Assembly (NCBI GenBank): GCA_905339405.1
Contig: CAJPGC010000017.1
Span: forward strand, 1-52,943
Source: an uncultured bacterium
GTDB lineage: Bacteria; Desulfobacterota; GWC2-55-46
DNA length: 52,943 nt
Direction: 5' to 3'
In this document: one piece after another, positions 3,980 to 34,128 of the stretch
How positions within the stretch are numbered: the first letter of the stretch is position 1
Layout of the letters: each line of letters begins with the position of its first letter
Translations under genes and position numbers: made by a program
Notes under the pieces: generated by a model
The model's database searches: none
Told to the model about the DNA's origin: nothing
Seen by the model: the letters and a program-made list of their open reading frames with translations, nothing else

Positions 3980-4003
3980 ATTGATTAAGCCGGAAATGCG
4001 GCC

Positions 4004-15366: not shown

Positions 15367-16194
15367 TTACCTCAGAAGCGAAAGTACGTTCTGCGGCGAC
15401 TGGTTGGCCTGGGCGAGAATGGAAGTGCCAGCCTGGACCATTATCTGGTTCTTGGTGTACTGGGCGGTCTCGTAGGCGAAGTCAGCGTCCCTTATCCTCG
15501 ACTCGGCGGCCTGGTAGTTCGTGTAGGTCACCTGGAGGTTGTTCAACGCCGCGGAAAGCCTGTTGGTGGAAGCACCGTAGATGGCTCTCGCGTCGTTGAT
15601 GGTCTTCAACGCTGCGCTTACGGAATCGAGCGCGCTCAGGGCGCCTGCCTGGGTCGATATGGCGCCGGAAACAAGGTTCAGGCTGCTGGTGCTCGTCAGC
15701 GCGTTGAGGCTGATGGAGAGCTGGTCGTTCGAGGTGTTCTTGAAGCCGATATACATCGTCAGGGCGGAGGTGCCGCCGTTGATGAGCTTGTAACCGCCGA
15801 ACTCAGTGGTGTTCGCGATCCTGTCTATTTCGTTGATGAGCTTGTTGTACTCATCGCTGTAATAGGACCTGTTGGTCGAATCCAGAGTGCCCTGCGCGGA
15901 GCTGGCGGCCAGCTCGCCCATCCTGGTGACGATGTTGGTTATCTGTTCCGCGGCCTTGTCGGCGATTTCCATCGCGCTGACGCCGTCGTTGATGTTCCTG
16001 ATTGAGGCCTGGATCATCCTCGACTGGCTGCGGAGCTGGTCGGCCCTGCCGAGACCGGCTGCGTCGTCGGCCGCGCTGTTGACCCTGTAACCTGACGAAA
16101 GCCTCTGTACGGAGACCTTCATCTGCGAGTTGGAGACTGAAAGGTTCTGCTGTGCTACGAGAGCTGCTACGTTAGTGTTGATTACGAGTGACAT
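15367..16194 (-). CDS. fliC: flagellin
   Basis: Filament subunit of 275 aa, secreted by the flagellar export system without a signal peptide. The conserved N-terminal D0/D1 helices (MSLVINTNVAALVAQQNL, then LSSGYRVNSAADDAAGLG) and the C-terminal helix (ETAQYTKNQIMVQAGTSI then NVLSLLR) are intact. The middle is very short, so the outer D2/D3 domains are lacking. The core is rich in Ser and Thr, possible sites for O-glycosylation by the neighbouring island. AAGGAGG precedes the ATG. A long leader with a sigma-28-like promoter and a CsrA-like hairpin lies upstream. Confidence 0.98.
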   Translation of the reverse strand: MSLVINTNVAALVAQQNLSVSNSQMKVSVQRLSSGYRVNSAADDAAGLGRADQLRSQSRMIQASIRNINDGVSAMEIADKAAEQITNIVTRMGELAASSAQGTLDSTNRSYYSDEYNKLINEIDRIANTTEFGGYKLINGGTSALTMYIGFKNTSNDQLSISLNALTSTSSLNLVSGAISTQAGALSALDSVSAALKTINDARAIYGASTNRLSAALNNLQVTYTNYQAAESRIRDADFAYETAQYTKNQIMVQAGTSILAQANQSPQNVLSLLR

Positions 16195-17001: not shown

Positions 17002-18900
17002 TCATACGGCGGCTTTTTTCAGCGCGCCCTCGCCCCTGGACTTCAGGCTAGAGGCGGCAGCCGTCAATACCGGGACGAACTTGGCGCAGCCTTTGGACAA
17101 TGCTCCATAGGCCTTTTGAATGGCCTCGATATCCTTTTCAATTCCCTTTGTCCCGCCGTGGGCCTCTTCCCTCAGGTATTCCTTGAGCTCGAATATGCTG
17201 GCCATTAGAGTCTCCCAGATGAAAGGCGACCTCTCGGCAGCCTGGAAAAGCCCTTCTTCGAGCCTCTTGACCTTCGCTGCCTTTCTGCCCGCCTTGAGAG
17301 TGCCTCCCTCGCGGCCCAATTCCCTTTTAAGGGAGGAGACTTCCCTGTATATAGAATCGGCAAGACGGCCAATTTCCTTGAGGCTATTGTTCATCTCCTC
17401 CAGGGAGGCGGTTATAGCGGGAATATCGGGCAGGACTCTTCTTGCCACTGCCCCTGCTATCATGGCGTCGAGCTGTACCTCATTTTTCACATATTTTTCA
17501 AGCACTTCAGCAAGCGTGGTGTGCTCCAGCCCGTCGATGTAGGCCCCGCCTTCGGTAGCGTTTATGACCCGCACGGTCGAGCCAGCGTTTTTAAGGGAGA
17601 TGGCGTAATTCTCGAACCACTGGTGGAACGACACCCAATCGAACTTGCTCGGCACCGGCGCGCCGTCGAGGCCCTTGAGCCAGAGGAGCTCAAACGAACT
17701 GTGGGCCTTGTCCTTGAGGGTCACATAATCCTCATCGATGGACACCTTGCAGTTTTCACGGTCTATCTTCACGTCCTGGGCCACGTAGACCCCGCCTGGG
17801 ACGTGCGTGCCGTTTTCCCCGAAGCACAGGTCCTGCCCGACTAGCACCACGGGGTCACAGCCGAACATGATGGCCATGTCAAAGGCGGAAGTGGTGACGG
17901 ACCCGCCGGATGAAGGCAGATAGGAAGAGCCCCAATAGTGCGCCTGCGCGCGGCTCAGGGATACGAAGGGGTTGAAAAAGACGAACTTCTCCTTTACTTT
18001 CCTTTCGAACATCCCGGGGTGCGCTACCTCCGCAAGGATGAGGCGGGTCTTAAGGTCATCCTCGCCGTGGGTAAAGTACTCGGGGAGGTCGACCTTTTCG
18101 GAAGCGATGACGAAGTCCGGGACCACGCCGTACTTGAGGAGCGGTTTATAGGCCGTAATGGCGGCCACTATCACGGCTTTTCCCTTCGCCTCCTTGAGGA
18201 GATGGGCGTTTTTGGCAAGCGAAGGCCCGGCTCCGGCGATTATCATCGGCACGCCCTTGAACGCGCCCTTGAGCGTATCAACAGGCGGATATTCATCGAA
18301 GCGGCTTATGTTCCCGAAGTAGTTCTCTATCCAGTTCTCCCTGGAGTCTATGTCGGTCTTGATGCATACCTTGTTCGTTATGTGCGCGTTGTTCACGCGC
18401 GTGTTGAAATCGACGAACTCCTGCGCGAAAGCGAGCTTGTAAGGGGCCGGCGCATAAGCGATGAGCGTGTCGAAACCGTCCAGTTCCCTTATCCCGGCCA
18501 CAAGCGCCGTCGGGTCTTCGTAAAGAAACACCGTTCTGCTTGAGAGGAGGCCCGAGAGGTCGACAGAGGCGAGGACGCCGGAGAGTATCTCCATCGAGGG
18601 CTCGTAGACGAAGATTTTTGAGCAGCCCTTATCTACGAGGGCCTTCAGGAGATGTCCGCAGCCGAGGCCGAACAGGAGCACCCAGTCCGGCTTCTTCGAG
18701 GTTATCTCATCCGCCTGGCAGGAAGCCTCTTTTTCGGGGCCGTAGGCGCTGTGGAAGTGCTTTCCCATGTGCCTGAAAGTGGCGCTGCCGTTTTTGGCCT
18801 TCTCCACCGTAACGAATGGCCCCTGGTACGCTTCGAGCTTATCCGCAAGCGGCCTGTTCCTCAGCTGGAGCGCGTCAAGGTTGGATCTCAGTATTTCCAT
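17002..18900 (-). CDS. motility-associated factor (Maf) glycosyltransferase
   Basis: A 632-aa protein of the Maf/DUF115 family. Members transfer pseudaminic or legionaminic acid onto Ser/Thr of flagellin in the cytosol before export. The core has GVPMIIAGAGPSLAKN at about 214-229, then AITAYKPLLKYGVVPDFVIASE, and SSGGSVTTSAFDMAIMFGCDPVVLVGQD, all characteristic. A helical C-terminal domain follows from about 480. It is positioned between the sugar-synthesis genes and flagellin, 4 bases from the GH57 gene, so it is the best candidate for the transferase that uses the island's CMP-sugar. Confidence 0.92.
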   Translation of the reverse strand: MEILRSNLDALQLRNRPLADKLEAYQGPFVTVEKAKNGSATFRHMGKHFHSAYGPEKEASCQADEITSKKPDWVLLFGLGCGHLLKALVDKGCSKIFVYEPSMEILSGVLASVDLSGLLSSRTVFLYEDPTALVAGIRELDGFDTLIAYAPAPYKLAFAQEFVDFNTRVNNAHITNKVCIKTDIDSRENWIENYFGNISRFDEYPPVDTLKGAFKGVPMIIAGAGPSLAKNAHLLKEAKGKAVIVAAITAYKPLLKYGVVPDFVIASEKVDLPEYFTHGEDDLKTRLILAEVAHPGMFERKVKEKFVFFNPFVSLSRAQAHYWGSSYLPSSGGSVTTSAFDMAIMFGCDPVVLVGQDLCFGENGTHVPGGVYVAQDVKIDRENCKVSIDEDYVTLKDKAHSSFELLWLKGLDGAPVPSKFDWVSFHQWFENYAISLKNAGSTVRVINATEGGAYIDGLEHTTLAEVLEKYVKNEVQLDAMIAGAVARRVLPDIPAITASLEEMNNSLKEIGRLADSIYREVSSLKRELGREGGTLKAGRKAAKVKRLEEGLFQAAERSPFIWETLMASIFELKEYLREEAHGGTKGIEKDIEAIQKAYGALSKGCAKFVPVLTAAASSLKSRGEGALKKAAV

Positions 18901-18904
18901 CGGT

Positions 18905-20929
18905 TCAGCTCCTTGCGGCCCTCAATGTGAAGGCGGCCTCGTTATAACCTCTCCAGACCCACCATGCCGTGTCGTCGAACTCGCCGAGGGAATGGTAGAC
19001 CCTCAGGAAGAACGAATCCTCCTCTGGCAGCTCTAGGTATTTGAGCATGGGCACCGTGAAGAGCTTTGATTTGTCGGTCTGTATCTCTATCGATTTGGAG
19101 CTGTCGCCTATCCTCAGCCAGCCGTCGGTCGCGCCCAGGCACGACGAGGCGGAAACGGACTGGCTTACCGGCTCGTCGTGAGCAAGCGTGTGCCCTTTCA
19201 TGTAGAACCTCTCTGCCCCTGCCCCGCCGTTCACGGTCTCGAACCAGAGCGTGTCCCTGTCGAAGGCCGACGGCATGAAGGTGAATATTCCCGCCCTGAG
19301 AGACGAGGCGACAAGTCCGTTGACCTTGAGCCTGTAGGTCACTTTGACCTCCGGGGCCGTCTTGGATATCTCATATTTTTTCCAGAGAGTGCCCAGCTCA
19401 AGTGGCGTTTTTATCTCGACGGTCACCTTCTCGACGTTCTCTTTCACTGACGCCGAAGAAGGGCTCAAGTCCGTAGTTTTTTTACCTTCCCTCGAAGTGT
19501 GGATGACATGTCCGCTGAAAAAATCGGCGCCGAGACTTATGTCCTCGTAATGGCCGTGCGCGAGCGTGCCCACGAGCGGCATTGGAGATACCTGCGGGAA
19601 GGTCAAGGACTTCAAAGCATGGCCCTTTGCCTCCTTGAACTCGGCGACGACTGTACCCGTGTCTATCCGGAGGACCTTTCCTTCGGAGCTTATCGCCGCG
19701 CCCTTTCCTTCAGGCACGGCTTCCTCTTCGCTCACATGGCGCATCGCGTTGGAGGCGCTGTAATTCCCGCCGTAGACCCATGAAAGGAGCGGCATCCTCT
19801 CGGTGTGGTTCCCGAGGAGCCTTTCAGTCTCTATCTTGAGCCAGCCGAGCCTGTTCTGGAACCACGCGAACTTCTCGTCTATGGTATTTGTCCTGAAGTC
19901 AGAACCCCAGAGCTCGCAGAGCACCTCCTTGAACCGCTCGAGCGTGTCTTTCTCGAGCGCGCCCTGCTCTATGAGGGCCCGGATGCTCTCGTAGACCTTG
20001 TGGCATTCCGTGTTTATGTGCACGCTGTCCCTTCCGGCGGCCGCCCACCTGAGGGGGTTGTACTTGTCCTGCTTCTTGCACACGACCGGCGTCTCGACCG
20101 ATTCGAGCTTTATGATGTTCGAGCGCCTCTGGCCTCTCGAAGAAGCGAGTATCTTTGAAGGCGTAGTAAGCTCTGCGCGTCCGTCTTCTGCTATCCTCTT
20201 CAGGAGCGTCTCGAGGTTTTTGTATTCGTCTTCCGCTGTAGCGTCATGGCCCGGCCTGTAGCTGAAGACCTCGGCGTCGTTGGTATAGAGCGGGAATACC
20301 CTATCTTCGCCGCTTGAGTGCGAGAAGAGAAAATCAAGGTACTCGTCCACTGTTATCTCTCCGTGCACGCACCTCTGGAACTTCTGGAAGGCGATGGAAT
20401 GGCTCCAGAGTACGTCTATGTCGGCCTTGAGCCCGGCCGCCCTCTGCGGGTGATAGAGGTAATCCTTCGGGTAATGGTTATGCTGGTGAGAGTTGTTCCA
20501 GTCCATTATCAAGCAGTCGTACCCGGCTTCCCTGTAAAGGTCGACAAGCCCCCTTGAGAACGTCTGCTCGTTGACGAGGGCAATCCTCGGCCTTCTTCCG
20601 AGGAGGTCCTGGTAGTACCTGTTACCTATCTCGAGGTTCCACCTGTTGACGTCCGTCGGGATGAGCGGAAAAATTGCCTGCGAATAGCCGGAGCCTATGA
20701 ATTCGCATTTCCCGGCCTGCCACAGGGAGCGGAGCCGCTCGATGAAGGACGGATCTATGCTGTTGACCTCCTTCAACGTCCACGCGGTCATCTCTATGGC
20801 GATGGGAAAGCCTTTTTCGGCCAGGTCGAGAAGCGGCGCATAGCACCTTTCAACGACCTTCGGGAAGTGCTCCCTGGGTATCATCGAAAAGGCGAGGTTG
20901 CAGTGAAAGAGGGTATAGAGTTCAAGCAT
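18905..20929 (-). CDS. glycoside hydrolase family 57-like protein
   Basis: A 674-aa protein with the GH57 seven-stranded barrel in its N-terminal half. Candidate conserved regions are LFHCN near the start, GSGYSQAI, the putative nucleophile Glu in ALVNEQTFSRG, and the putative acid Asp in LYTNDAEVFSYRPG. The C-terminal 280 residues are beta-sandwich-like. There is no signal peptide, so it acts in the cytosol. Known members are amylases, glucanotransferases, branching enzymes and galactosidases; the substrate here is unknown. It overlaps the IolB-like gene by 8 bases inside a flagellar sugar operon, an unusual setting for GH57. Confidence 0.8.
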   Translation of the reverse strand: MLELYTLFHCNLAFSMIPREHFPKVVERCYAPLLDLAEKGFPIAIEMTAWTLKEVNSIDPSFIERLRSLWQAGKCEFIGSGYSQAIFPLIPTDVNRWNLEIGNRYYQDLLGRRPRIALVNEQTFSRGLVDLYREAGYDCLIMDWNNSHQHNHYPKDYLYHPQRAAGLKADIDVLWSHSIAFQKFQRCVHGEITVDEYLDFLFSHSSGEDRVFPLYTNDAEVFSYRPGHDATAEDEYKNLETLLKRIAEDGRAELTTPSKILASSRGQRRSNIIKLESVETPVVCKKQDKYNPLRWAAAGRDSVHINTECHKVYESIRALIEQGALEKDTLERFKEVLCELWGSDFRTNTIDEKFAWFQNRLGWLKIETERLLGNHTERMPLLSWVYGGNYSASNAMRHVSEEEAVPEGKGAAISSEGKVLRIDTGTVVAEFKEAKGHALKSLTFPQVSPMPLVGTLAHGHYEDISLGADFFSGHVIHTSREGKKTTDLSPSSASVKENVEKVTVEIKTPLELGTLWKKYEISKTAPEVKVTYRLKVNGLVASSLRAGIFTFMPSAFDRDTLWFETVNGGAGAERFYMKGHTLAHDEPVSQSVSASSCLGATDGWLRIGDSSKSIEIQTDKSKLFTVPMLKYLELPEEDSFFLRVYHSLGEFDDTAWWVWRGYNEAAFTLRAARS

Positions 20930-21707
20930 ATTTAGCCTCGAGCCATTTGTATTCGGGGTCTGTGTTCGGCATCAGCACACGGCCGTCTCCGGCCAGAAAC
21001 CAGAGGTAATAGAGGCCGTAGCCGGGCATCGCGGAAACCGGGTGGTAGCCCCAGGGTATCGTCACCGCGTCGTAATCCTTAACCTGAAAAGAATGGCTGC
21101 CCTCTTTGCCGTATATGGTCTGGGTGCCGAAGCCCTCGGAAGGGTTGAGCCTGAAGAGGTATATCTCCTCCATCTTCACTTCAGCTCCCGGTATCACGGT
21201 ATCGTGCTTGTGCGGCGGGAAGCTCGACCAGCAGCCCGGCCTGTTGAAGGTCTCGCCTACGACGAGCCTGGTGGCAGGGGCGTCAGCGCCGATGATATCG
21301 ACGACCTTTCTTTCCCAGTTCTCCCTGCCCACGGTCTTTTCCCTGGTCATATATGGAGAGACAAAAAAGGCTTCTCCCTTTTGGCTTGCCCTTGCCTTGC
21401 AGAGAGCTATCTCGGTCGGCTTTTCGGCCGTGAAGACAGCCTCGCCGTCAAAAGGCAGGCAGAGGGCGGATGCGGTCTCGGTAAAGACGCTCTCCCTTTT
21501 CATCCTGTGATCACGTCCGTTGACGGCCGCATTGGCGTCCCCGCTCAGGATGACGGCTGCCGTCTCGATGCCTTTGCTCGACAGGCTGAAACTCTCTCCG
21601 GGGGCGAGCACAAGCAGGTCGAGGCTCAGCAGTCCTAGCTCGCCTTCGGGTACGACCGTATTGAGCCCGCGCTCCCTTTTAGAGCTGACTTTAACGGGTT
21701 TAAGCAT
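20922..21707 (-). CDS. iolB: IolB-like 5-deoxyglucuronate isomerase family protein
   Basis: A 261-aa double-cupin of the KduI/IolB family. IolB isomerises 5-deoxy-glucuronate to 2-deoxy-5-keto-gluconate in inositol breakdown. The second cupin carries the metal-ligand pattern SSFPPHKHD and then EEIYLFRLNPSEGFG, with VTIPWGYHPVSAMPGYGLYY further on, all highly typical of IolB. No other iol genes (iolC, D, E, G) are visible. The gene overlaps its neighbours on both sides by 8 bases and belongs to the sugar island, so it probably isomerises a uronate-like precursor or side product. Native substrate is unproven. Confidence 0.82.
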   Translation of the reverse strand: MLKPVKVSSKRERGLNTVVPEGELGLLSLDLLVLAPGESFSLSSKGIETAAVILSGDANAAVNGRDHRMKRESVFTETASALCLPFDGEAVFTAEKPTEIALCKARASQKGEAFFVSPYMTREKTVGRENWERKVVDIIGADAPATRLVVGETFNRPGCWSSFPPHKHDTVIPGAEVKMEEIYLFRLNPSEGFGTQTIYGKEGSHSFQVKDYDAVTIPWGYHPVSAMPGYGLYYLWFLAGDGRVLMPNTDPEYKWLEAKYA

Positions 21708-22929
21708 AGACCTTCTCTGGGGCGGTATTTATAGAGACCGTCTCAGCGGCCCGCTGCCAGTTGGCCTCGGCCTCAGTCCTGTCAGCTCCGGCGGCGATTA
21801 TGTAGCAGACCCTGTGGCCGCAGTTTCGGTAAGGAGGGATGACCTCGCCGACTTCCGTCATCATGAATATCTCTTCGACGCCGGGGAGGGTTTTAGCCTC
21901 TTCAACGCCGGTAATGGACCTTATGATGCCCGGCTCAGGGAACACTGCCTTGCATATCGTGACCCTGTCCTTTATAAGCGTGTGGTATTCCTCTTTGACT
22001 TCGAGACCGGCCGCCAGGGCCAGCGCCATCTTCTGCGGCTCGAGCCCGGTGGCAGAAGGGGTCGTGTACTGTGAATGGAAGCCGCCGGAAAGGCGGGCCG
22101 GGAGCTCTAAGACCATCGGCCCTTTTTTAGTCATTATTGTATCGGCCTTGTAAGGGCCGAAGTCTATGCCCAGAGAAGTTGCCGCTGCCTCAACTACACT
22201 GTAGAGCTCTTCCTGTACTGCCGGGGAAAGCGCGCTGGGGTTGGTGTGCCCGGTCTCTATCGGGAAGGGGCCGAAGCCGAAGTGCCTATCGACTATGCCG
22301 AACCTGTAGTGACGGCCCTTCCAGACGATGAGCTCGACGCTCTGCTCGGGGCCTTCGACGAACTCCTCGATGAGGGCAGTCCCTGTCGTTGAATGGTTCT
22401 TGGCGTCGATGAGCGCCTCTTCGAGCTCGTCGACCGTATCTATGCGCCTGGAGCCCCTCGAGGCCGCGTTGTCTATCGCCTTGACCATGCAGGGGAGGCC
22501 TGTTTTCTTGAGGGCCTCTTTTGCTTCCTGAAGGGTGCTCACTTCCCCAGCCCATGGTGTCGGTATGCCGTCGACGAGCCACTTGCTTTTCATCATGGAC
22601 TTGTTGTTCGACCTCTCGGCGGTCTCCATCGATATGCCCGGAAGGCCGAGCGCGTTCGACACGGCGGCCGCCGTTATGGCGACGTCTGCGCCAGCTACGA
22701 CCCCCGAGATGTTGAACCTCTCTTTATTGCGGCCGGCCCAGACGGCGTGCGCCCAAGCGCTCTTGATATCGAGCGTCAGGGCGAAGTCTGCCTCCTTGAG
22801 GCCCACGGCATCAACGTTCCTGTCGGAAGCGATGACGAAAAGGCCCATCTCTTTGGCCTTCCTTATCATCGGGAGCTGCATAACGCCCGCGCCCAGGACC
22901 ATAACGGCTTTTTTCTTCATATCCCCCAT
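21700..22929 (-). CDS. ATP-grasp carboxylate-amine ligase-like protein
   Basis: A 409-aa ATP-grasp enzyme. The N-terminal pre-ATP-grasp Rossmann domain starts with KAVMVLGAGVMQLP. The ATP-binding central domain has GLPCMVKAIDNAASRGS and ALIEEFVEGPEQSVEL, and the metal/phosphate site is at LELPARLSGGFHS. A C-terminal lid follows. Such enzymes join a carboxylate to an amine or thiol through an acyl phosphate. In this operon a sugar acid carboxylate is a plausible substrate. The ATG at 22929 has GGAGG 9 bases upstream and overlaps the SDR stop by 13 bases. The product is not predictable from sequence. Confidence 0.88.
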   Translation of the reverse strand: MGDMKKKAVMVLGAGVMQLPMIRKAKEMGLFVIASDRNVDAVGLKEADFALTLDIKSAWAHAVWAGRNKERFNISGVVAGADVAITAAAVSNALGLPGISMETAERSNNKSMMKSKWLVDGIPTPWAGEVSTLQEAKEALKKTGLPCMVKAIDNAASRGSRRIDTVDELEEALIDAKNHSTTGTALIEEFVEGPEQSVELIVWKGRHYRFGIVDRHFGFGPFPIETGHTNPSALSPAVQEELYSVVEAAATSLGIDFGPYKADTIMTKKGPMVLELPARLSGGFHSQYTTPSATGLEPQKMALALAAGLEVKEEYHTLIKDRVTICKAVFPEPGIIRSITGVEEAKTLPGVEEIFMMTEVGEVIPPYRNCGHRVCYIIAAGADRTEAEANWQRAAETVSINTAPEKVYA

Positions 22930-23681
22930 GACAGGAAACCTCCGTCGACTGGAATCACCGCGCCTGTCACGAAATCAGACGCCTTTGAGGACAGATAAAT
23001 GGCGGTGCCGGCCAGCTCTTCCGGCGTGCCGAGACGCTTCATCGGAGTGTTCGCGAGTATCCTTTCGAGCCTCTCGCCGACAAGAACCTTCGCGTTCAAT
23101 GCTGTCCTGAAAACTCCAGGCGCGATGGCGTTGACCTGTATGTTGAAGGGCGCGAGCTCAACGGCGAGGTTCTTTGTGAGGAGGATTACCCCCGCCTTTG
23201 AAGACGTGTAGGCTGCCGCGTCTTTCAAGGCCACGAAAGAGCCGAGAGAAGCTATGTTTATCATCTTCCCCCTGCCCTGCACCTTCATCTGCGTACCGAC
23301 CGCGCGGCATACCCTGAACGAGCCGGTGAGGTTCGTCTCTATGACCCTGTTCCATTCCTCATCGGTGACTTCCAGCGTGTCTTTCTTGAGGTGCACTCCG
23401 GCAGAGTTGACCAGGATGTCTATGCGGCCGTATTCCTCTACGATGCGGCTCACCGCGTCGTTGACAGAGTCGGTGTCGAGAATGTCCATCGGAACGGCAA
23501 AGGCTTTGCCTCCCGCTTTCGTTATCATGCTCACGGTCTCAAAGAGCTTTCCCGAGTCCCTGCCGGAGACGGCAACGCAGGCCCCTGCCGAAGCAAGACC
23601 TGCGGCTATCGCCTGCCCGAGCCCGCTGCCGCCGCCAGTCACGAAGGCCGCTTTTCCCTCAAGCGTAAAAAGGCCGCTCAA
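22917..23681 (-). CDS. SDR family oxidoreductase
   Basis: A classical short-chain dehydrogenase/reductase of 254 aa. It has the cofactor loop TGGGSGLG (15-22), NSAG (92-95) and the catalytic Ser145, Tyr158 and Lys162, and it ends with VTGAVIPVDGGFLSWG. It resembles gluconate 5-dehydrogenase or KduD-type enzymes. The frame is open to 23903, but the true start is a TTG at 23681 with AGGAGG 8 bases upstream; the longer form would overlap the methyltransferase by 226 bases. It pairs with the IolB-like isomerase two genes on, which hints at keto-sugar acid interconversion. Confidence 0.9.
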   Translation of the reverse strand: MSGLFTLEGKAAFVTGGGSGLGQAIAAGLASAGACVAVSGRDSGKLFETVSMITKAGGKAFAVPMDILDTDSVNDAVSRIVEEYGRIDILVNSAGVHLKKDTLEVTDEEWNRVIETNLTGSFRVCRAVGTQMKVQGRGKMINIASLGSFVALKDAAAYTSSKAGVILLTKNLAVELAPFNIQVNAIAPGVFRTALNAKVLVGERLERILANTPMKRLGTPEELAGTAIYLSSKASDFVTGAVIPVDGGFLSWGI

Positions 23682-24502
23682 TTGTCTGTCCTCCTGCCGC
23701 GCACGACGATGGTGTCTCCTATGCCCATGCGCTTGGCGATGGTGTCCATCGCCTTCTTGTTGACGTCCGGTATGGAGCCCTTCGGGTTGCAGCTTCCGAA
23801 CCTGACCCAGCTTACGACTGAAAAGCCGGTGTCGGAAAGGAGCTTGAACAACGATTCCTGCGAAAAGAGATGCAAATGCTGTACCGGGAGATAGTAGAGC
23901 CACTTATCTCCGAAGAGCTCCGAGACCATGCCGGTGCAGGGCGTCTGTATGACTACCTCGCCGCCAAGTGAAAGAAGCGAGCGCGTCTTCTCGAGCACTT
24001 CCCTCGGGTTGGAGACGTGCTCTATGACGTCCCAATAGGTGAGCATGTCGAACTCACCCTTCATCTCGAAGAGGTCTTTTACATGGCAGTTGAGCCCGGC
24101 TTCCTTTCCCGCGTTTACCATCTCCTCGGAGATGTCGATGCCTAAGGACTCTATGCCGAACTTCGCCGTGTACTCGAGGAACTGGCCGTTGGCGCAGCCG
24201 ACGTCCAGAAGCTTTTTGCCGTTGAAAGAAGCAAGGTCCATCCTGAGGTCGCTGAAGGTCAGGGACTTCTCGTTGAAGTACGTGTCCCTGTACTCTTTCG
24301 TGAAATGCAGGTGATGGCCCAGGTTGTTGAACTGCTTCGTCATGTACCCGCTGTCGTAGAACGTCTCTATCTCCCTTGCCGTGGGGTAGGAGGCCATTCT
24401 CTCAACACCGCAACCGGCGCACCTCACGTATTGGCAGCCGTCTACCACGGCCATTAGGCGGGCCTCAGAGGCACCGCACAGCCTGCAGGAATCGTTACCC
24501 AT
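23678..24502 (-). CDS. class I SAM methyltransferase with N-terminal zinc knuckle
   Basis: A 274-aa methyltransferase. The N-terminus binds a probable zinc ion through C6, C9, C28 and C31. The Rossmann core has LLDVGCANGQFLEY (motif I), an acidic residue in LGIDIS, and TYWDVIEHVSNPREVL. This two-part build is typical of enzymes acting on nucleotide-linked deoxysugars. It overlaps the second methyltransferase by 8 bases and the SDR start by 4 bases. The substrate is probably an intermediate or hydroxyl of the flagellar sugar, or its N-acyl group; this is inference from position. Confidence 0.88.
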   Translation of the reverse strand: MGNDSCRLCGASEARLMAVVDGCQYVRCAGCGVERMASYPTAREIETFYDSGYMTKQFNNLGHHLHFTKEYRDTYFNEKSLTFSDLRMDLASFNGKKLLDVGCANGQFLEYTAKFGIESLGIDISEEMVNAGKEAGLNCHVKDLFEMKGEFDMLTYWDVIEHVSNPREVLEKTRSLLSLGGEVVIQTPCTGMVSELFGDKWLYYLPVQHLHLFSQESLFKLLSDTGFSVVSWVRFGSCNPKGSIPDVNKKAMDTIAKRMGIGDTIVVRGRRTDN

Positions 24503-25397
24503 TGCGCTTCTCCCCGTAGATTATCATCTCGCGGCCTATGCCGTGCCTGGCCATGAGCTCGTACATCTCCTTCTTGAAGCCCTTGAGCTCGGGCTCGTTC
24601 AACATGAGGTCGAGTCTTTTTCTCCTGGCGTGGCTTGCCCTGCCGAGCTCGTCGTTCCCGACGTAGTCGTCACCCATCAAGAGGAAGAAGTCTATCGGGA
24701 ACATCGAGGTGGCCCCGACGACCTTGAAGCCCGTCTTTTCCAGGAGCGACTTCATGGACTCAAAGCTGAAGTAGTTTATGTGGTGGGGAGGAGCGAGCCA
24801 GTACGGCTTGTAATGGAGCTTCTCCTTCAAGACCTTCTGCACCGGGCTGTAGTCGTTCGGGACCACGCAGCAGATGAGGCTGCCCTCGTCCATGAGAGAG
24901 GAGGCCGCCTTGAGTATCATCGACGGGTCGGGCACGTGCTCGAGTACCTCCGAGAGGTGGACCGCGTCGAAACGCTTCCTCAACGCCGAGGCTAGTCCGC
25001 TGTCGAAAAAGGTGTTCATGACCTCCAGGCCCAGGCCCCTTGCGTGGGCGGCCGCCTTGGAGGAAGGCTCCACTCCGAAACCCTTCCAGCCGCGCTCTGT
25101 GCCCGCCTTGAGGAAGTACCCCGGGCCGCAGCCTATGTCGAGCACCGAGCGCCTTCCGGCGGGAAGCTTCGACTCGAAGAACTCGTACCTGTCGTTATAG
25201 ACCGCGTCCCACCAGGGCAGGTCCTCCACGACGCGCTCGATGAAAAGAGGTTTTTCGTCCGTGTAATACTCGTCCCTGTAGACCTTGTCCAGCTCGCTCT
25301 CTGTAGGGACCGGGTTCAGGTGGATGAAACCGCAGTCCGAGCAGTCCAGGACGCTGAAACCGTTGGCCCTGTCAAGTACGCTTCCGCTGTGCATCAT
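24495..25397 (-). CDS. class I SAM methyltransferase, second copy
   Basis: A 300-aa methyltransferase related to its neighbour. It has SVLDIGCGPGYFLKAG (motif I), FGVEPSSKA, and VHLSEVLEHVPDPSMIL. Of the N-terminal zinc knuckle only the second pair, C19 and C22 in DCSDCGF, is present; the first pair is missing even in the upstream open frame. The frame runs to 25511, but the ATG at 25397 has AGGAG 9 bases upstream and clears the pseG stop. Two successive methyltransferases suggest two methylations on the glycan, or one methyl and one other transfer. Confidence 0.87.
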   Translation of the reverse strand: MMHSGSVLDRANGFSVLDCSDCGFIHLNPVPTESELDKVYRDEYYTDEKPLFIERVVEDLPWWDAVYNDRYEFFESKLPAGRRSVLDIGCGPGYFLKAGTERGWKGFGVEPSSKAAAHARGLGLEVMNTFFDSGLASALRKRFDAVHLSEVLEHVPDPSMILKAASSLMDEGSLICCVVPNDYSPVQKVLKEKLHYKPYWLAPPHHINYFSFESMKSLLEKTGFKVVGATSMFPIDFFLLMGDDYVGNDELGRASHARRKRLDLMLNEPELKGFKKEMYELMARHGIGREMIIYGEKRNG

Positions 25398-25414
25398 TAT
25401 CTTTACTCCTGAAA

Positions 25415-26401
25415 TCAGTTCTGTTGTATGAGTGAGTTGATGAGTGAGGCTATCCTCGAGGCCCCGTCGCCGTCCGTAAGGCCCCTCGCGTTCATTACCA
25501 TTCCCCGCCACAGGGCCGCGTCGTCCCTGAAGAGCTCGGCGGCCTCAGTTATCTTCGATGAGACGACGTCCCTGTAAAACCCGAGGCTTTTGCAGATGCC
25601 CAGGCCCTCAAGAGAGGCGAGGTCTTCGGCGTCGCTCTCGTAGTTGCCTATTAAGACCGACGGGACGCCCATGTACGCGAGCTCGTAGACCGTCGTGCCT
25701 ACGGCAGTGAAAGCTATGTGCGCATCCCTCATGAGGGGCGCCATGTTCTTCACGTTAAAGACGAATTTGAACTTCCCGTTCCCCATCTTCATGAACTCTT
25801 CCATCGTCTCAGTCATTTTGAAGGCCGGACCGACAACCGTCGTGACCTCTATACCCTCGGTATTCCAGAGCGACTTCAAGACGTTTTCGGTGAGGCTGAA
25901 GGGGTCGGACCCGCCCATCGTGACGAGCACCTTGAGCGGGGCCGCGTGCCTTGCGGGCTTCGGGCTTCTCTCTCGCCTGAAGTTCTCCCCGATAATGAGA
26001 TAGTGCCTGCCGTAATGGACTTTCGCGCTCTCCTGGCCCTTGTATACCGGAGACGGCATGACTATAGCGTCCGCCTCCCCGGTCGAGCTGTTGTCGATGA
26101 GGACGACCTTTCTGCCCTCTTCCCTCAAGGCCCTCACCTGGGCGCTGACGTCGCGCTTGGTGTCGATTACCACTACCCCGTTCGTGAGCCTGTCCGCGTG
26201 CCTGCCGGTCATGGGGTAGACGATGTGAAAGAGGGACTCGTCGTTAAGGCGGTCTATGACGGGGCGCTCGTTGTTGACGAGGAAGTGCATCGGCATCCCG
26301 CTGTCAGTCTCGAGCGCGTGAGCTATGTTGATGCACCTCATGACGTGCCCCATGCCTATCGAGCTGCCCCCCTCTGTCCAGAAGGTCACGCCGTTTTGCA
26401 T
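25415..26401 (-). CDS. pseG: PseG/SpsG family nucleotide-sugar hydrolase
   Basis: Related to the UDP-2,4-diacetamido-2,4,6-trideoxy-altropyranose hydrolase that releases UDP before condensation to pseudaminic acid. The 328-aa GT-B fold begins with GSSIGMGHVMRC, where the invariant GMGH motif (about 16-19) holds the catalytic His. VTMGGSDP and FTAVGTTVYELAYMGVPS follow. It overlaps the preceding oxidoreductase gene by 14 bases. With pseB, pseC, pseI and the cytidylyltransferase it completes most of a nonulosonic acid route. Exact stereochemistry of the substrate is uncertain. Confidence 0.87.
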   Translation of the reverse strand: MQNGVTFWTEGGSSIGMGHVMRCINIAHALETDSGMPMHFLVNNERPVIDRLNDESLFHIVYPMTGRHADRLTNGVVVIDTKRDVSAQVRALREEGRKVVLIDNSSTGEADAIVMPSPVYKGQESAKVHYGRHYLIIGENFRRERSPKPARHAAPLKVLVTMGGSDPFSLTENVLKSLWNTEGIEVTTVVGPAFKMTETMEEFMKMGNGKFKFVFNVKNMAPLMRDAHIAFTAVGTTVYELAYMGVPSVLIGNYESDAEDLASLEGLGICKSLGFYRDVVSSKITEAAELFRDDAALWRGMVMNARGLTDGDGASRIASLINSLIQQN

Positions 26402-27399
26402 ATTCTCTCGCGCTCCTCAAGGAGGTTCCTGGAACCCTTTACGTCCATGGCGAGCTTCAAAGTCCTGTGCCCGTCCTTCACGTCGGCTTCGGGTGTGAGC
26501 TTCTTTTCGATGCAGTCGAAAAAGTGCCTCGCCTCGGCTACGTACATGTCGTTCACCTGGAAGGCGACCCTGCCGGAGTACCATTTGCCGAGCTCGGTCG
26601 AATAGGTCTCGACGACGCCGGTGAGGAAATCGGCCCTTATGGTGCCCCTGGAGCCTGCGATGACCATCCTGTGCTGGTTCGCCCTCTGGAGAAAGTCGGT
26701 CTGCCAGTTGACGTATACTCCGCTTTTGAGCCTGAATATGGCCGTTACGAGGTCCTCGACGTCCATTTCCAAATCGCTTACCTTGTCGACGAAGGCGTGG
26801 GTCTCCTCGACCTCGCCGAAAAGCCACCTGATGTTGTCAAGGCCGTGTATGCTCGTAAGGACGACTCCGCCGCCGAGCTTTTTGCGCGCCGCGTACTCTA
26901 TTCTGTAATCAGCGTCCGGGTGCCAGTCGGGAAGGTAGTGGCCGCCGAAGTAGTTGACGTGGTATATCCTGCCGATCACTTCTGATGCCACAAGGCTCTT
27001 GACCTGCTGGAAGACCGGGTGGAACCTGTAGCACATCGCCATCATCGCGACCAGGCCCTTATCGCCGACAGTCCTTTCGAGCTCGCCGATGCCGTCGAGC
27101 GTGCTGGAGAGTGGCTTTTCTATGAGGAGGTGCACGCCGTGACGGGCAAGCTCCAAGGCCATCTCAAGGTGCAGCGAGCTCGGCGTGCAGATGACGGCCG
27201 CCTGGGGGCCCTGCAGGAGCGCGTTCTTGAACTTGGTCGTCAAGACCGGGTTCTGGAGCCCGATGGAAGCCGTCTTTAAAGACTCTTCGCTGGTATCGCA
27301 GAGTATGAAGTTCCTTATGCCAAGAGAAGAGAGATTTTTAATGTGCCTTCTGCCTATGGAGCCGCAGCCTACTACGAGGACCCTTGTTTCCGCTATCAT
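26386..27399 (-). CDS. Gfo/Idh/MocA family oxidoreductase (first of two)
   Basis: NAD(P)-dependent sugar oxidoreductase of about 337 aa. The N-terminal Rossmann domain has VLVVGCGSIGRRHIKNL, and the EKPLSS motif contains the catalytic Lys. The C-terminal alpha/beta domain ends near MDVKGSRNLLEER. The start is the ATG at 27399 with AGGTGG 8 bases upstream; a GTG at 27411 would lie inside that site. It lies between the class III aminotransferase and pseG. Such enzymes often set up a keto group for transamination on UDP-sugars, a plausible job here. Confidence 0.88.
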   Translation of the reverse strand: MIAETRVLVVGCGSIGRRHIKNLSSLGIRNFILCDTSEESLKTASIGLQNPVLTTKFKNALLQGPQAAVICTPSSLHLEMALELARHGVHLLIEKPLSSTLDGIGELERTVGDKGLVAMMAMCYRFHPVFQQVKSLVASEVIGRIYHVNYFGGHYLPDWHPDADYRIEYAARKKLGGGVVLTSIHGLDNIRWLFGEVEETHAFVDKVSDLEMDVEDLVTAIFRLKSGVYVNWQTDFLQRANQHRMVIAGSRGTIRADFLTGVVETYSTELGKWYSGRVAFQVNDMYVAEARHFFDCIEKKLTPEADVKDGHRTLKLAMDVKGSRNLLEERERICKTA

Positions 27400-27418
27400 C
27401 CCGAGTTCCACCTTTCGA

Positions 27419-28747
27419 TTAATTTCTCTGCCTGAAGACGACGCCTACGGGCTCGCCCTCGAGGAAGCTCTGGGGCTCGCCGCTGTCGACGGCCTTTTTC
27501 AGCACGCGAAGGGCTTCGCAGGACGCGTCTATCGTCTTTTTGATGTCCTTTTCGCTGTGCGAGTAGCTGACGAAGACAGGGCCGCCGTAAAGGACGCCGC
27601 GTTTAACGGTCTCCTGGAGGAAGACGCTCTTCAAAAGGAGGTCCTCTTCGCCCGAAGCGTTCTTCGCGCTGATGCCGCCCCTGGGGGGCTTGCCGTATAT
27701 CTTGAAGTCGACGCCGATCGATTCTGCAAAAGAGTTGATGCCGTTGTGCAGCACCTCTCCCATGTCCCAGATGTGCTTTATGACGGGCTTTTCCATGAGC
27801 TCGGTTATAGTGGCCCTCGCTGCCGCGAGCCCTATCGTGTCGCCCGAGTAGGTCATCGAGAAGAAGACCTCGTCAAGCTCCTTCATGAACTCCTTCTTGC
27901 CTACAAGAGCTGATATGGCGAAGCCGTTGGCCATGCCCTTGCCGAAGCAGGCCAGGTCCGGGACGACGCTGTAGTACTTCTGCGCGCCTCCGAGCGAGTA
28001 CCTGAAGCCGGTGACTATCTCGTCGAGGACGAAGAGCGCCCCGTTCTTGTTCGCGACTTCCTTCGCGAGCTGGAGGAAGTTCTTGCCGGTCTTCATGTCG
28101 ATCACGGGGTCGGTGCCCGGCACTTCCATTATTACGCAGCCTATCTTGCCGGGGTTTTCGGCAAAGAGCTTCTCCAGAGTCTCTATCCTGTTGTACTCGA
28201 AGGCGTGCATGTAGTCCTTCAAAGCCGCCGGAATGCCTTTGTTCCTCGGGGTCACGACGGCGTACCAGTCCTGGCAGCCGTGGTAGCCGCAATACGCGAT
28301 ATGGTCCCTGCCGGTCGCGGCCCTGGCGACCTTTACGGCCGCGCTCGTGACGTCCGCGCCGTTCTTGCCGAACCTGGCCATCTCCGCCGAGGGTATTATC
28401 GTTGAAAGGAGCTCCGCGACTTCTACCTCGAGCGGGTGCATGAGGGTGAAGGTGGTCCCTTCCCTCACCTGGCTTATTACCGCCTCGCTTACAGGGGCGT
28501 AGTCGTAGCCGAGGAGGATGGGCCCGAGCGCGAGCGGGTAATCGATGTATTCGTTACCGTCGACGTCCCAGACGTGGGAGCCCTTGCCCTTCTTGAGGTA
28601 CTTGGGCGTAACTCCCTGCACGAACTGGTTAGGGCCCTTGCTGAGGGTCTGCGTGCCCGCGGGTATCCTCGCCACTGCGCGCTCCCAGAGGGCGTCTGAT
28701 GCGGGGAAAAGGCTTGTTTTGTTCTCGTTCTTATGTGCCAGGTTCAT
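27419..28747 (-). CDS. class III PLP aminotransferase (glutamate-1-semialdehyde aminomutase-like)
   Basis: A 442-aa fold-type I PLP enzyme. It has GNEYIDYPLALGPILLGY, FGKNGADVTSAAVKVARAAT, LDEIVTGFR and the Schiff-base Lys in CFGKGMANG. Similarity is to GSA aminomutases, but a heme role is unlikely because no other heme genes are present and the neighbours are sugar genes. Homologues in surface-sugar loci aminate keto sugars or nonulosonic acids. It is 24 bases from the cytidylyltransferase and 19 from the oxidoreductase, which suggests an oxidise-then-transaminate pair. Confidence 0.85.
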   Translation of the reverse strand: MNLAHKNENKTSLFPASDALWERAVARIPAGTQTLSKGPNQFVQGVTPKYLKKGKGSHVWDVDGNEYIDYPLALGPILLGYDYAPVSEAVISQVREGTTFTLMHPLEVEVAELLSTIIPSAEMARFGKNGADVTSAAVKVARAATGRDHIAYCGYHGCQDWYAVVTPRNKGIPAALKDYMHAFEYNRIETLEKLFAENPGKIGCVIMEVPGTDPVIDMKTGKNFLQLAKEVANKNGALFVLDEIVTGFRYSLGGAQKYYSVVPDLACFGKGMANGFAISALVGKKEFMKELDEVFFSMTYSGDTIGLAAARATITELMEKPVIKHIWDMGEVLHNGINSFAESIGVDFKIYGKPPRGGISAKNASGEEDLLLKSVFLQETVKRGVLYGGPVFVSYSHSEKDIKKTIDASCEALRVLKKAVDSGEPQSFLEGEPVGVVFRQRN

Positions 28748-28771: not shown

Positions 28772-29557
28772 TTAACCGGCTTTCTTGACTATCCTGTCCT
28801 GCCGGAGAGATTTTGCGTATCCTTCGTTGCGCTTCGTGTCGGCGTTCAGCTTGAGCACTTCGGGCTTTCTCCTCAGGAAAGTCAGGACCTCGTCCATGTG
28901 AAAGACCCTGTCCCCCGCGCCTATGCCTTCGTATATCTCGGTCACGAGCTTGAGGTCGCGCTCGTCGTCTACCGTCCAGCGCATCCCGGAGAGGTCAACG
29001 ACGCTCTTTATCTTCTCGAGCCTGAAAATCTGCGTGTTCTTCCAGATATACGGGGTGACGTGCTCGCGCTCGGATGAAAGGGAGGCCTCGGTGTGGGCTT
29101 TTTTTAGGGCTTCGAATGAGAAGACCTCCGCGTCCAACCCGTCCGGAAAGCTCGAATCTACGCTCACGTGGTCAAAGCCGCCCTCATTGAACTTCTCTAT
29201 GGCCCTGTCAACGAGCGCCGGGTCGATTAAAGGACAGTCAGAGGTTATCCTCACGATGGTCTTCGCGCCGAAAGTGCTCGCGGCCTGAAAATACCTGTCG
29301 AGGACGTCGTCGAGGCTGCCCCTTGAGCAGCCTGTCCCGCCGAGCTTGCACCACTCTTCTATGATGTCGTCCTCCGGGCCGGTCGTGGTCGCGACGACTA
29401 TCTCGTCTATCAGGGCCGAGGCCTTGAGCCTGTTTACGACGTGCCACAGCATCGGGCGTCCCGCTATTCCCTTCATGACTTTTCCGGGAAGCCTCGTGGA
29501 GCTCATCCGGGCCTGGACTATGGCGACTACCGGCCTCAACTCTTCCCTCAACCGCAT
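28772..29557 (-). CDS. pseF: PseF/SpsF-type cytidylyltransferase
   Basis: Probable CMP-nonulosonic acid synthetase. The 261-aa GT-A-like fold starts with AIVQARMSSTRLPGKVM, the nucleotide-binding signature of SpsF/PseF. ATTTGPEDD and ITSDCPLIDPALVD, with the metal-binding Asp residues, follow. GSLDDVLDRY is also typical of this family. It would activate the acid made by PseI for use by the Maf glycosyltransferase. A strong GGGAGG site precedes the ATG, and the gene overlaps pseI by 10 bases. Confidence 0.87.
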   Translation of the reverse strand: MRLREELRPVVAIVQARMSSTRLPGKVMKGIAGRPMLWHVVNRLKASALIDEIVVATTTGPEDDIIEEWCKLGGTGCSRGSLDDVLDRYFQAASTFGAKTIVRITSDCPLIDPALVDRAIEKFNEGGFDHVSVDSSFPDGLDAEVFSFEALKKAHTEASLSSEREHVTPYIWKNTQIFRLEKIKSVVDLSGMRWTVDDERDLKLVTEIYEGIGAGDRVFHMDEVLTFLRRKPEVLKLNADTKRNEGYAKSLRQDRIVKKAG

Positions 29558-30591
29558 ATGTCCTCCCTCTGCACCGGCATGTCCTTGACGAGGTTGCGGA
29601 GCGCTGTCTTACCGATTATTCCGCCTAAGTCCCTGGGCTCGAGGCCGTAGGCGTGGCGCACGAGCTTGACCATGTCCGTCGTGATGACCTCTCCCCTGTG
29701 TATGTCGGTCCTGGCGTAGATGGACCTCCTGGCCCCGACCCTTTCGGCCATCTCGCTTTCAGAGGGCCTCTTGACGCCGTCGCCGAGAGCCTTCTCCAGG
29801 TTCCTTATCTCGGAGACCATGTACTTGAACTCCTCGACTTCCATCGCGTACGGGTGGTCGGGCCCCTTAAGTTTTCTGTCGAGGGTTATGTGCTTTTCGA
29901 TTACCGATGCGCCGAGTGCTATTGCCGCGGTCGCGACCGTGTTGCCCGGCGTATGGTCGGAGAAACCGACCGGGCAGCCGAACTCCCTTTGAAGCGACGT
30001 CATCGCCATGATGTTCATGTCCTCATACTTCGGCGGATAGAGCGACGCGCAGTGCAGGAGTGCCACCTCGTAGTTCTTCTCTTCCAGGATGACCTCTACC
30101 GCGCGTCTTACCTCTTCGAGATAGGCTGCCCCGGTCGAGAGTATTACCGGCTTGCCGTAGGAAGCCACGAGCTTGAGGAGCGGCTCGTTCGTAAGCTCGC
30201 CAGAGGCGAGCTTGAAGGCAGGGACGCCCAGCTCGTGCAAAAGCTCTGCCCTGCCCTCGTCGAACGGGGCCGAAAGAAAGGTGATGCCGACTGTGGAGCA
30301 ATAATTGAAGAGAAGCTCGTGCCATTCCTCGGGCACTGTGAGCCGTTCGATTATGGGGTAGGCGGGGTGCGCGATCCATTTGCCGTCGACGTCAGGCTTC
30401 AAAGGGTTAAGGAGCCCCTCGGCGGTGAACGACTGTAGCTTTACGGCGTCAGCGCCAGCGTATTTGGCTGCCCGGATGAGCTCTTTGGCCTTCTCGATGT
30501 CAGAGTCGTGGTTCGAGCCTATCTCCGCTATGACGTACGCCGGATACCCGGTGCCGACCGCCTTACCAGCTATCTTTATCGTGCTCCTCAT
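29548..30591 (-). CDS. pseI: NeuB/PseI family nonulosonic acid synthase
   Basis: Condenses a 6-carbon 2,4-diacetamido or N-acyl sugar with phosphoenolpyruvate to a 9-carbon acid. The 347-aa protein has the NeuB barrel (VIAEIGSNHDSDIEKAKELI; DAVKLQSF; KLASGELTN; GFSDHTPGN; ASVIEKHITLDR) and a C-terminal SAF domain at about 285-345. The family separates into NeuB, LegI and PseI forms that I cannot resolve reliably by eye; PseI is favoured by the presence of pseB and pseC. It is followed without a gap by the cytidylyltransferase. Confidence 0.92.
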   Translation of the reverse strand: MRSTIKIAGKAVGTGYPAYVIAEIGSNHDSDIEKAKELIRAAKYAGADAVKLQSFTAEGLLNPLKPDVDGKWIAHPAYPIIERLTVPEEWHELLFNYCSTVGITFLSAPFDEGRAELLHELGVPAFKLASGELTNEPLLKLVASYGKPVILSTGAAYLEEVRRAVEVILEEKNYEVALLHCASLYPPKYEDMNIMAMTSLQREFGCPVGFSDHTPGNTVATAAIALGASVIEKHITLDRKLKGPDHPYAMEVEEFKYMVSEIRNLEKALGDGVKRPSESEMAERVGARRSIYARTDIHRGEVITTDMVKLVRHAYGLEPRDLGGIIGKTALRNLVKDMPVQREDICG

Positions 30592-30592
30592 C

Positions 30593-31651
30593 TCATCTGC
30601 TCCTTATCTTAAGTCTTGATTCGAGTGGAAGGTAGACTCTTTCCCGCCGCCTGTCTGATTCGTGTATAGCGAGGGCCGCTTCGAGCGCTGCCAGGGCGTC
30701 CCTCGGCCCGTTCCTGCTCCCGGCACTGCCTTCGACCGCGTCCAGAAGGTTCGTCAAAGCTCCTGTCCAGATGTTGCCGTTTTCATATTCCGGGAACTCG
30801 ACCATATAGAGTTCCTTGAAGCCCGTGTAGTGTCTGCTCGGCGAAGGCCTGTAATATTCGAGCAGGCCGTTGTTGCCTATCCTTATCCTGCCGTGGCTGC
30901 CGATTATGTCGAACTCGAAGAAAAAATAACCCTTTGATTCCGCGAAAACTGCGCCGTGCGCCCCGTTTTTGAATTTTATGAAAGCCCGTCCGCCCCTGTC
31001 GTCGGCCACGTCCCAGGGAAGAGATCCGGTCGAATCTTCAAGAGTCCCCTCTATCCATTCGATATCTCCTGCAAGCCACCTGAGGACGTCGAAGGCGTGC
31101 GTGCCGGTGTGGATGAAGCTTCCGCTGAAGTGGCTCGTTATCGACTGGAGAGAGCCTATGCCGCCGTCATCTATTATCTCTTTTGCCTTTGCGTACTCGC
31201 CGCTCCATCTCCTCATGTGTGAGACGATCATCTGCGCGCCGGTCGACTCAGCCACTTCTATTATCGCCCTGCCCTCTTCCAGGGAGGTGGCAAGGGCCTT
31301 TTCGCACCAGATGCCCTTCGCGCCGGCCCTGGTGGCATCCTTCACCATCTCGGACCGCTCCGGCGCATAAGCGCATATGCTGACGATTTGAGGCGCCTCC
31401 TGCGAGAGCATCTCCCTGTAATCGAGGTACAGTCTTTCGACCACGTACCTCTTGCCGAACTCACGGAGCCTTGCCGGGTCGCTATCAGAGGCCGCCGTGA
31501 CCTCAACCCTTCCCATCCTTGCAAGCTCCATGTAAGCCCCCATGTGGGTGCAGGGCTTTTTCTCGAGAGGGTCGTCCTCGAGCATCCAGGCGACCCTGCC
31601 GCAGCCTATCAGCGCGGCCCTGTATGGCGAACTAGGCCGCTTCAGGGCCAT
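30593..31651 (-). CDS. Gfo/Idh/MocA family oxidoreductase (second)
   Basis: A 352-aa NAD(P)-dependent oxidoreductase. The Rossmann start is AALIGCGRVAWML, and the catalytic motif CEKALATS replaces the usual EKP. The C-terminal region has HTGTHAFDVLRWLAGD. The two copies in the island are diverged, so they probably act on different substrates. It overlaps the zinc-ribbon gene by 20 bases and ends 2 bases before pseI begins. The start has no good ribosome binding site, so translational coupling to the zinc-ribbon gene is likely. Confidence 0.88.
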   Translation of the reverse strand: MALKRPSSPYRAALIGCGRVAWMLEDDPLEKKPCTHMGAYMELARMGRVEVTAASDSDPARLREFGKRYVVERLYLDYREMLSQEAPQIVSICAYAPERSEMVKDATRAGAKGIWCEKALATSLEEGRAIIEVAESTGAQMIVSHMRRWSGEYAKAKEIIDDGGIGSLQSITSHFSGSFIHTGTHAFDVLRWLAGDIEWIEGTLEDSTGSLPWDVADDRGGRAFIKFKNGAHGAVFAESKGYFFFEFDIIGSHGRIRIGNNGLLEYYRPSPSRHYTGFKELYMVEFPEYENGNIWTGALTNLLDAVEGSAGSRNGPRDALAALEAALAIHESDRRRERVYLPLESRLKIRSR

Positions 31652-31814
31652 CGAAGAAACCGTCGGAGAGGTCCGGGGCGAGGACCTTGTCGTTCTTTTC
31701 GACCAGAGCCCCTTCGCACTGGGGGCATACGAGGTCCTTGCCCATCCTGTACATGTGGCTTACTCCCCAGCCCCAGAACTCGCTGGCGCATCTTCTGCAT
31801 ACGAACTTGGGCAT
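31632..31814 (-). CDS. small zinc-ribbon protein
   Basis: A 60-aa protein with two CxxC pairs, C6/C9 and C30/C33, spaced as a rubredoxin-like or ribbon-type zinc site, and an acidic C-terminal tail. It has Trp residues between the knuckles (FWGWG). It lies between pseC and the second oxidoreductase and overlaps the latter by 20 bases. It may be a subunit, metallochaperone or regulator for a sugar-synthesis enzyme. I do not recognise a named family. Confidence 0.72.
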   Translation of the reverse strand: MPKFVCRRCASEFWGWGVSHMYRMGKDLVCPQCEGALVEKNDKVLAPDLSDGFFDGPEAA

Positions 31815-31835
31815 AATCTGACTCCTTTCTTTAGT

Positions 31836-34128
<2,293 letters not shown>

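Follow-up and report, generated by a model that had tools for sequence, protein, structure and literature searches.

The contig CAJPGC010000017.1 from an uncultured bacterium of the Desulfobacterota was analysed over its whole length of 52,943 nucleotides (the window in the following). The analysis concerned four consecutive genes of a flagellin glycosylation locus, which are predicted to encode a short-chain dehydrogenase/reductase (SDR), an ATP-grasp ligase, an IolB-like isomerase and a GH57 protein. The gene order of the locus starts with PseB, PseC, Gfo/Idh, NeuB/PseI, CMP-sugar synthetase, class-III aminotransferase, Gfo/Idh and PseG-like, and it continues with two methyltransferases (MT1 and MT2), SDR, ATP-grasp, IolB-like, GH57, Maf, flagellin, FlaG and FliD. 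The four reading frames are all open and lie on the minus strand upstream of maf and flagellin. They overlap by 13 bases (SDR/ATP-grasp, 22917-22929), 8 bases (ATP-grasp/IolB, 21700-21707) and 8 bases (IolB/GH57, 20922-20929), which bore out the overlaps of 8-13 bases in the original prediction, and the Pfam families were confirmed as well. The SDR gene starts with a TTG at position 23681 and overlaps with MT2 by the 4 bases TTGA (23678-23681). The genes are the following:

22917..23681, minus strand: SDR, predicted NAD(P)-dependent keto-sugar-acid reductase (adh_short_C2, 212 bits; YxxxK motif in the sequence)
21700..22929, minus strand: predicted ATP-grasp carboxylate-amine ligase (LAL_C2, 70.5 bits; ATP-grasp_4)
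20922..21707, minus strand: IolB-like isomerase of the KduI/IolB family (PF04962, 222 bits)
18905..20929, minus strand: predicted GH57-fold alpha-glycosidase or transglycosidase with a C-terminal GalM-like beta domain (Pfam GH57, 72 bits)
23678..24502, minus strand: MT2, S-adenosylmethionine (SAM) methyltransferase, first gene of the swappable cassette (Pfam Methyltransf_23, 89.7 bits)
24495..25511, minus strand: MT1, SAM methyltransferase (Methyltransf_23, 96 bits; start uncertain)
17002..18900, minus strand: Maf/PseD-type flagellin glycosyltransferase (MptE-like, 122 bits; Maf_flag10_N, 25 bits; PseD model, 115 bits, under the cut-off of 670)
15367..16194, minus strand: flagellin, presumed acceptor (from the sequence; adjoins maf in most relatives)
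25415..26401, minus strand: PseG-like UDP-sugar hydrolase (TIGR03590, 119 bits, cut-off 153.6)
26386..28747, minus strand: Gfo/Idh oxidoreductase and class-III aminotransferase, part of the nonulosonic acid (NulO) core
28772..34020, minus strand: CMP-sugar synthetase, NeuB/PseI, Gfo/Idh, PseC and PseB, the NulO core without PseH

IolB was present in 15 of 59 related genomes, all of them members of the window's own family. The order SDR, ATP-grasp, IolB, GH57, Maf and flagellin was kept in every IolB locus of the family with enough sequence, so that the linkage is not due to chance, and the predicted clustering of the four genes beside maf proved to be strongly conserved. The order was also kept in genome G027, in which the ATP-grasp gene is broken and the SDR gene is truncated. 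At this locus (L096, G027:C36) the two cassette genes are stopped or truncated between intact flanks, by decay or by an assembly error. The search for a flagellar IolB outside of the family was unsuccessful; the other matches within the phylum were distant (below 132 bits) and were not followed further. No flagellar core gene was found near the other-phylum matches L020-L026, and plasmid matches are mostly annotated as ordinary IolB.

Overlaps of MT2/SDR, SDR/ATP-grasp (4 or 13 bases) and ATP-grasp/IolB (8, 17 or 35 bases) recurred in nearly every IolB locus, whereas the IolB/GH57 junction varied among the relatives between an overlap of 14 bases and a gap of 129 bases. This indicated that the coupled unit consists of MT2, SDR, ATP-grasp and IolB, and that GH57 follows it. 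GH57 and ATP-grasp were more widely spread than IolB, with both present in 33 genomes and neither in 26; these counts include two genomes (G041, G042) with partial ATP-grasp matches, and the Fisher test of the co-occurrence is not corrected for shared ancestry. The locus is a real, conserved and interpretable module, in which the function of each enzyme is a prediction.

Genomes of the same family without IolB kept the NulO core, GH57, Maf and flagellin, and they carried another ATP-grasp and another SDR or an alcohol dehydrogenase in the slot. In these loci the flanks were 50-81% identical to the window (GH57 62%, Maf 54%, class-III aminotransferase 77%, flagellin 81%), versus 32% for the ATP-grasp, 37% for the SDR and 29% for MT2. 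The median identity of MT2 was 70% in relatives with IolB and about 29% in same-family relatives without it. MT1 was kept in most swapped clusters (L098, L100, L103, L105), with none in view in L099, and the core class-III aminotransferase and Gfo/Idh were kept in L089-L092, L094, L096-L100, L103 and L105.

The slot contained an IlvB-type (acetolactate-synthase-like) thiamine pyrophosphate (TPP) enzyme in L099, and an FSA-type aldolase, two zinc alcohol dehydrogenases, a methyltransferase and a B12 radical SAM protein in L098 and L105, all three being loci of the window's family. Elsewhere in the order, class and phylum the FSA set was found in L100 and L104, FSA together with an SDR in L103, and a transketolase pair, mostly with an SDR, in L101, L102, L106, L130, L133, L134 and L138, the last on a contig without GH57. 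The transketolase type was also found in a plasmid region of Solidesulfovibrio carbinolicus with genes for NeuB-like, PseF, methyltransferase, FabG-type SDR, transketolase N and C, methyltransferase, ATP-grasp, GH57, PseB and PseC. On this plasmid, pDCAR1 (L109), the transketolase-type acyl cassette is complete and is accompanied by GH57 and pse genes, which makes the plasmid a possible vehicle of cassette transfer. The B12 radical SAM protein, the two zinc alcohol dehydrogenases and a large methyltransferase of the aldolase-type cassettes (L098, L100, L104, L105) suggest a branched or C-methylated acyl chain.

In the ATP-grasp tree, the IolB type formed one clade (100/99), and four FSA types formed another clade across the families f1, f7 and f8 (100/99). 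In the GH57 tree, the proteins of the FSA-type loci L098 and L105 fell among those of same-family IolB loci. Some of the forks are poorly supported and the placement of the longest branches is uncertain; the ATP-grasp groups mainly by cassette type and GH57 mainly by organism phylogeny. GH57 is thus a constant companion of the slot outside of the swapped unit, and the original view of one unit of SDR, ATP-grasp, IolB and GH57 had to be given up, because GH57 stays in genomes with swapped cassettes and mainly follows organism phylogeny. The case for an exchangeable cassette is fairly strong. Each of the alternative fillings of the slot (transketolase pair, IlvB-type TPP enzyme, FSA-type aldolase) comes with its own reductase and ATP-grasp, so that the relatives should carry different acyl chains.

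A characterized counterpart exists in Shewanella oneidensis, in which sfmABCDE (SO_3261-3265) encode a NeuB-domain protein, an IlvB-type TPP enzyme, an SDR, a methyltransferase and an ATP-grasp protein (PMC3765264). The flagellin glycan of this species consists of a 274 Da mono-N-acetyl pseudaminic-type NulO with a free amine and a nitrogen-free moiety of 236, 250 or 264 Da, with O-methyl groups, and loss of the sfm ATP-grasp led to a smaller mass shift of the flagellin than loss of the other sfm genes (PMC3765264). A mass calculation revealed that the three moieties fit the acids C9H18O8, C10H20O8 and C11H22O8 if water is lost upon linkage. The sfm system and the window share an SDR, a SAM methyltransferase and an ATP-grasp of about 410 amino acids beside maf, as well as PseB/PseC without PseH. 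In contrast, sfm has an IlvB-type TPP enzyme where the window has IolB, and the published operon contains no GH57. The IlvB-type enzyme, which is missing from the window cassette, was found in the relative L099, whose cassette proteins have nearly the lengths of their Shewanella counterparts (sfm versus L099: TPP enzyme 583 and 581 amino acids, SDR 251 and 255, ATP-grasp 412 and 412). The IlvB-type version of the cassette matches the sfmBCDE gene set. The statement that none of the four genes belongs to known nonulosonic acid routes was therefore too strong, as sfmBCDE is a characterized flagellin-modification counterpart (PMC3765264).

In the IolB-like protein the residues H166, H168, E180/E181 and H222 were invariant in 12 homologues, and the metal ligands aligned with those of PDB 2qjv. 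The protein is a full-length family match with all metal ligands and up to 41-43% identity to IolB of other phyla. In contrast to IolB, it lies below the cut-off of the equivalog model TIGR04378 (188 bits versus 205; four members of the clade reached 188, 194, 186 and 191 bits), its genome has no IolD and its context is a flagellar operon. Three IolB relatives from other phyla passed this cut-off (231-247 bits). IolD was above the cut-off in none of 30 genomes, including the window's own, with 3 of 14 controls positive and without a search for other iol genes; inositol catabolism was therefore rejected, and the claim of an IolB-like gene without other iol genes held for IolD. An identity as KduI was also rejected, because PRK00924 (cut-off 250) gave no match for the window protein and 18.8 bits for the L089 orthologue.

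IolB converts 5-deoxyglucuronate to 2-deoxy-5-ketogluconate, which is an aldose-to-ketose step. A KduI/IolB-family isomerase acting on a hexuronate yields a 5-keto-hexonate, which is reduced by hexonate 5-dehydrogenase, in line with the established reactions of IolB, uronate isomerases and gluconate 5-dehydrogenase. The best PDB matches of the SDR were 4g81, a putative hexonate dehydrogenase, and 4ibo, a gluconate dehydrogenase (both by annotation). A precedent for such a pair is KduI-KduD, an isomerase and a reductase that act in sequence on a sugar acid in catabolism (PMC12838403). The window likewise has an isomerase of the same Pfam family beside an SDR reductase, but it differs in the absent or marginal match to the KduI equivalog and in its biosynthetic rather than degradative context. 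A literature search on IolB and flagellar glycosylation retrieved no paper that describes such a link. The IolB-like protein and the SDR might instead have the NulO itself, or the hexose from which it is made, as their substrate and generate an isomerised or epimerised core, as KduI and IolB are aldose-ketose isomerases of sugar acids, a NulO is a keto sugar acid, and the position of the clade below the equivalog cut-off allows for a new substrate. However, the core is common to clusters without IolB, and elsewhere the slot holds a transketolase or an aldolase, which points to the building of a small chain, so that this explanation is very unlikely.

The ATP-grasp protein contains an L-amino acid ligase-type domain (LAL_C2, 70.5 bits versus a cut-off of 29.4), its best PDB match was the L-amino acid ligase 3vot (E 6.6e-25), and K150, E225, D263, E275 and R279 were invariant in 18 homologues. 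Further matches include one from Parabacteroides, which sits in a polysaccharide cluster, and one from Acetoanaerobium without annotation. The domain and the PDB match would also fit an enzyme that adds an amino acid, comparable to the N-methylglutamyl legionaminic acid of Clostridium (Leg5GluNMe7Ac), with the IolB-like protein and the SDR making a different, unlinked modification. This is decidedly unlikely, because the ATP-grasp is swapped together with the chain-building enzyme and is largely grouped by cassette type, which an unrelated substrate would not predict, and because the Shewanella moiety contains no nitrogen (PMC3765264).

In the GH57 protein H9, E121 and D218 were invariant in 18 homologues, and E121 and D218 aligned with the catalytic acids of the 4-alpha-glucanotransferase 1k1w. 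In a structural model the barrel (residues 1-373) matched a GH57 amylopullulanase with Z 31.7 and was followed by the GalM-like beta domain. The window protein shares the fold and the catalytic Glu and Asp with these enzymes, but differs in its low identity of about 12-16%, the GalM-like C-terminal domain and its place in a glycosylation operon. Judged from the conserved residues and the model, activity as an alpha-glycosidase or transglycosidase is likely. The adjacency of GH57 and Maf, which had been called unusual, was verified in the window. A general partnership of the two was rejected, because across 395 genomes of the phylum the Maf N-terminal Pfam model, which undercounts Maf, was found in 39, GH57 in 19 and both in 6. 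In three GH57 loci without a Maf in view, GH57 accompanied ATP-grasp/SDR sets (L107, L109) or an SDR and a transketolase (L136), which indicated that GH57 is not simply a Maf accessory and tracks ATP-grasp and SDR instead. L107 is a second GH57-ATP-grasp-SDR set of genome G029 and belongs to a cluster for a surface polysaccharide, with flippase and glycosyltransferase genes; the same genome has tandem ATP-grasp genes on another contig (L142). The literature covered, which mostly excludes subscription journals, contained no account of the GH57/ATP-grasp/transketolase linkage.

The co-occurrence of GH57 and ATP-grasp in 33 genomes and the two retained catalytic residues would also be expected if the cassette made a separate modified sugar in glycosidic linkage to the NulO, with GH57 as the transglycosidase and the ATP-grasp only tailoring the sugar; the linkage of the outer moiety was not settled in Shewanella (PMC3765264). 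On the other hand, sfm makes its moiety without a GH57 among its five genes (PMC3765264), the window cassette has no second nucleotide-sugar synthetase, and a nitrogen-free acid, a carboxylate-amine ligase and a free amine fit together better. A separate sugar is thus regarded as unlikely.

A match to the PseH model above the cut-off, as expected for the canonical pseudaminic acid pathway, was found in none of the 59 genomes. Because no PseH N-acetyltransferase is present, the NulO would keep a free amine. The class-III aminotransferase resembles glutamate-semialdehyde mutase (PRK06209, 419 bits, below the cut-off), and together with Gfo/Idh it is constant in the NulO clusters of the order; the two could oxidise and aminate one more NulO carbon.

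With moderate confidence, the locus is interpreted as a flagellin NulO pathway with an exchangeable acyl-chain cassette, in which a sugar acid is amidated onto the amine of the NulO. This interpretation builds directly on the gene content, its conservation, the swapping of the slot, the active-site residues and the lack of PseH above the cut-off; the substrates, the sequence of the reactions, the amide linkage and the role of GH57 are proposed as follows. PseB, PseC, PseG, PseI and the CMP synthetase, together with the class-III aminotransferase and Gfo/Idh, would generate an activated pseudaminic-type sugar with a free amine. The IolB-like isomerase would convert a hexuronate-type aldose to a 5-keto-hexonate, the ketone of which would be reduced by the hexonate-dehydrogenase-like SDR, and MT2 would O-methylate either the acid or the glycan once it is complete. 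The ATP-grasp would join the carboxylate of the acid and the NulO amine to an amide, GH57 would probably add or trim an alpha-linked residue on the acyl-NulO, and Maf would transfer the product to flagellin in the cytoplasm. The side branch of the original prediction, a sugar acid joined by a carboxylate ligase, thereby became the best reading, with a chemistry in the right direction and a conserved linkage.

Several points weigh against this interpretation. GH57 has no step in the amidation pathway itself. In the absence of IolD from the genome there is no evident source of 5-deoxyglucuronate, and sources of uronate were not searched. The IolB-type ATP-grasp could use an amino acid instead of a sugar acid, the L103 ATP-grasp did not group cleanly by cassette type, and the likeness of SfmE to the ATP-grasp is one of gene description and length. 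Genome G005 had a weak PseH-like match (44 bits), and an N-acetyltransferase that is unrecognised or lies in an unrecovered part of the genome could replace PseH.

Two further features of the surroundings were observed. In at least ten relatives, maf and flagellin are separated by a gene for a protein of about 200 amino acids that matches no Pfam family (in L089 at 3600-4196), and an open frame is found at the corresponding position of the window (approximately 16377-16982). The window start (1-1362) contains a fragment that resembles a transposase, by eye of the IS110 type, and an open frame with a G+C content at third codon positions of 0.30 versus about 0.75 elsewhere, so this contig end is probably mobile or foreign DNA.

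If the proposed pathway is true, the acyl group made by a flagellar NulO cluster could be predicted from the content of its swap slot, and strains of the IolB type would carry roughly 162-192 Da in addition to a mono-N-acetyl NulO of 274 Da. The unusual glycans of Shewanella, and possibly those of Treponema, would then also have a genetic explanation, as the flagellin glycan of Treponema denticola has a mass of 450.2 Da (PMC9481697). The calculated sum of a mono-N-acetyl NulO (274 Da) and an O-methyl-deoxyhexonoyl group (176.07 Da) is 450.185. The side group of the T. denticola glycan is reportedly such an O-methyl-deoxyhexonoyl group. For the phylum it is tentatively proposed, at a little under an even chance, that flagellin NulOs are made by a fixed core and an interchangeable acyl cassette, of which there would be IolB, transketolase, IlvB and aldolase types with an ATP-grasp specific to each. 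The IolB-type isomerase of the window would have been recruited from inositol catabolism for a hexonoyl side chain, giving a flagellar sugar-acid amide that had not been tied to such genes before. This would be a biosynthetic role for an IolB relative outside of inositol catabolism. The cassette probably builds a small sugar acid, and by swapping it related bacteria could change their flagellar coat.

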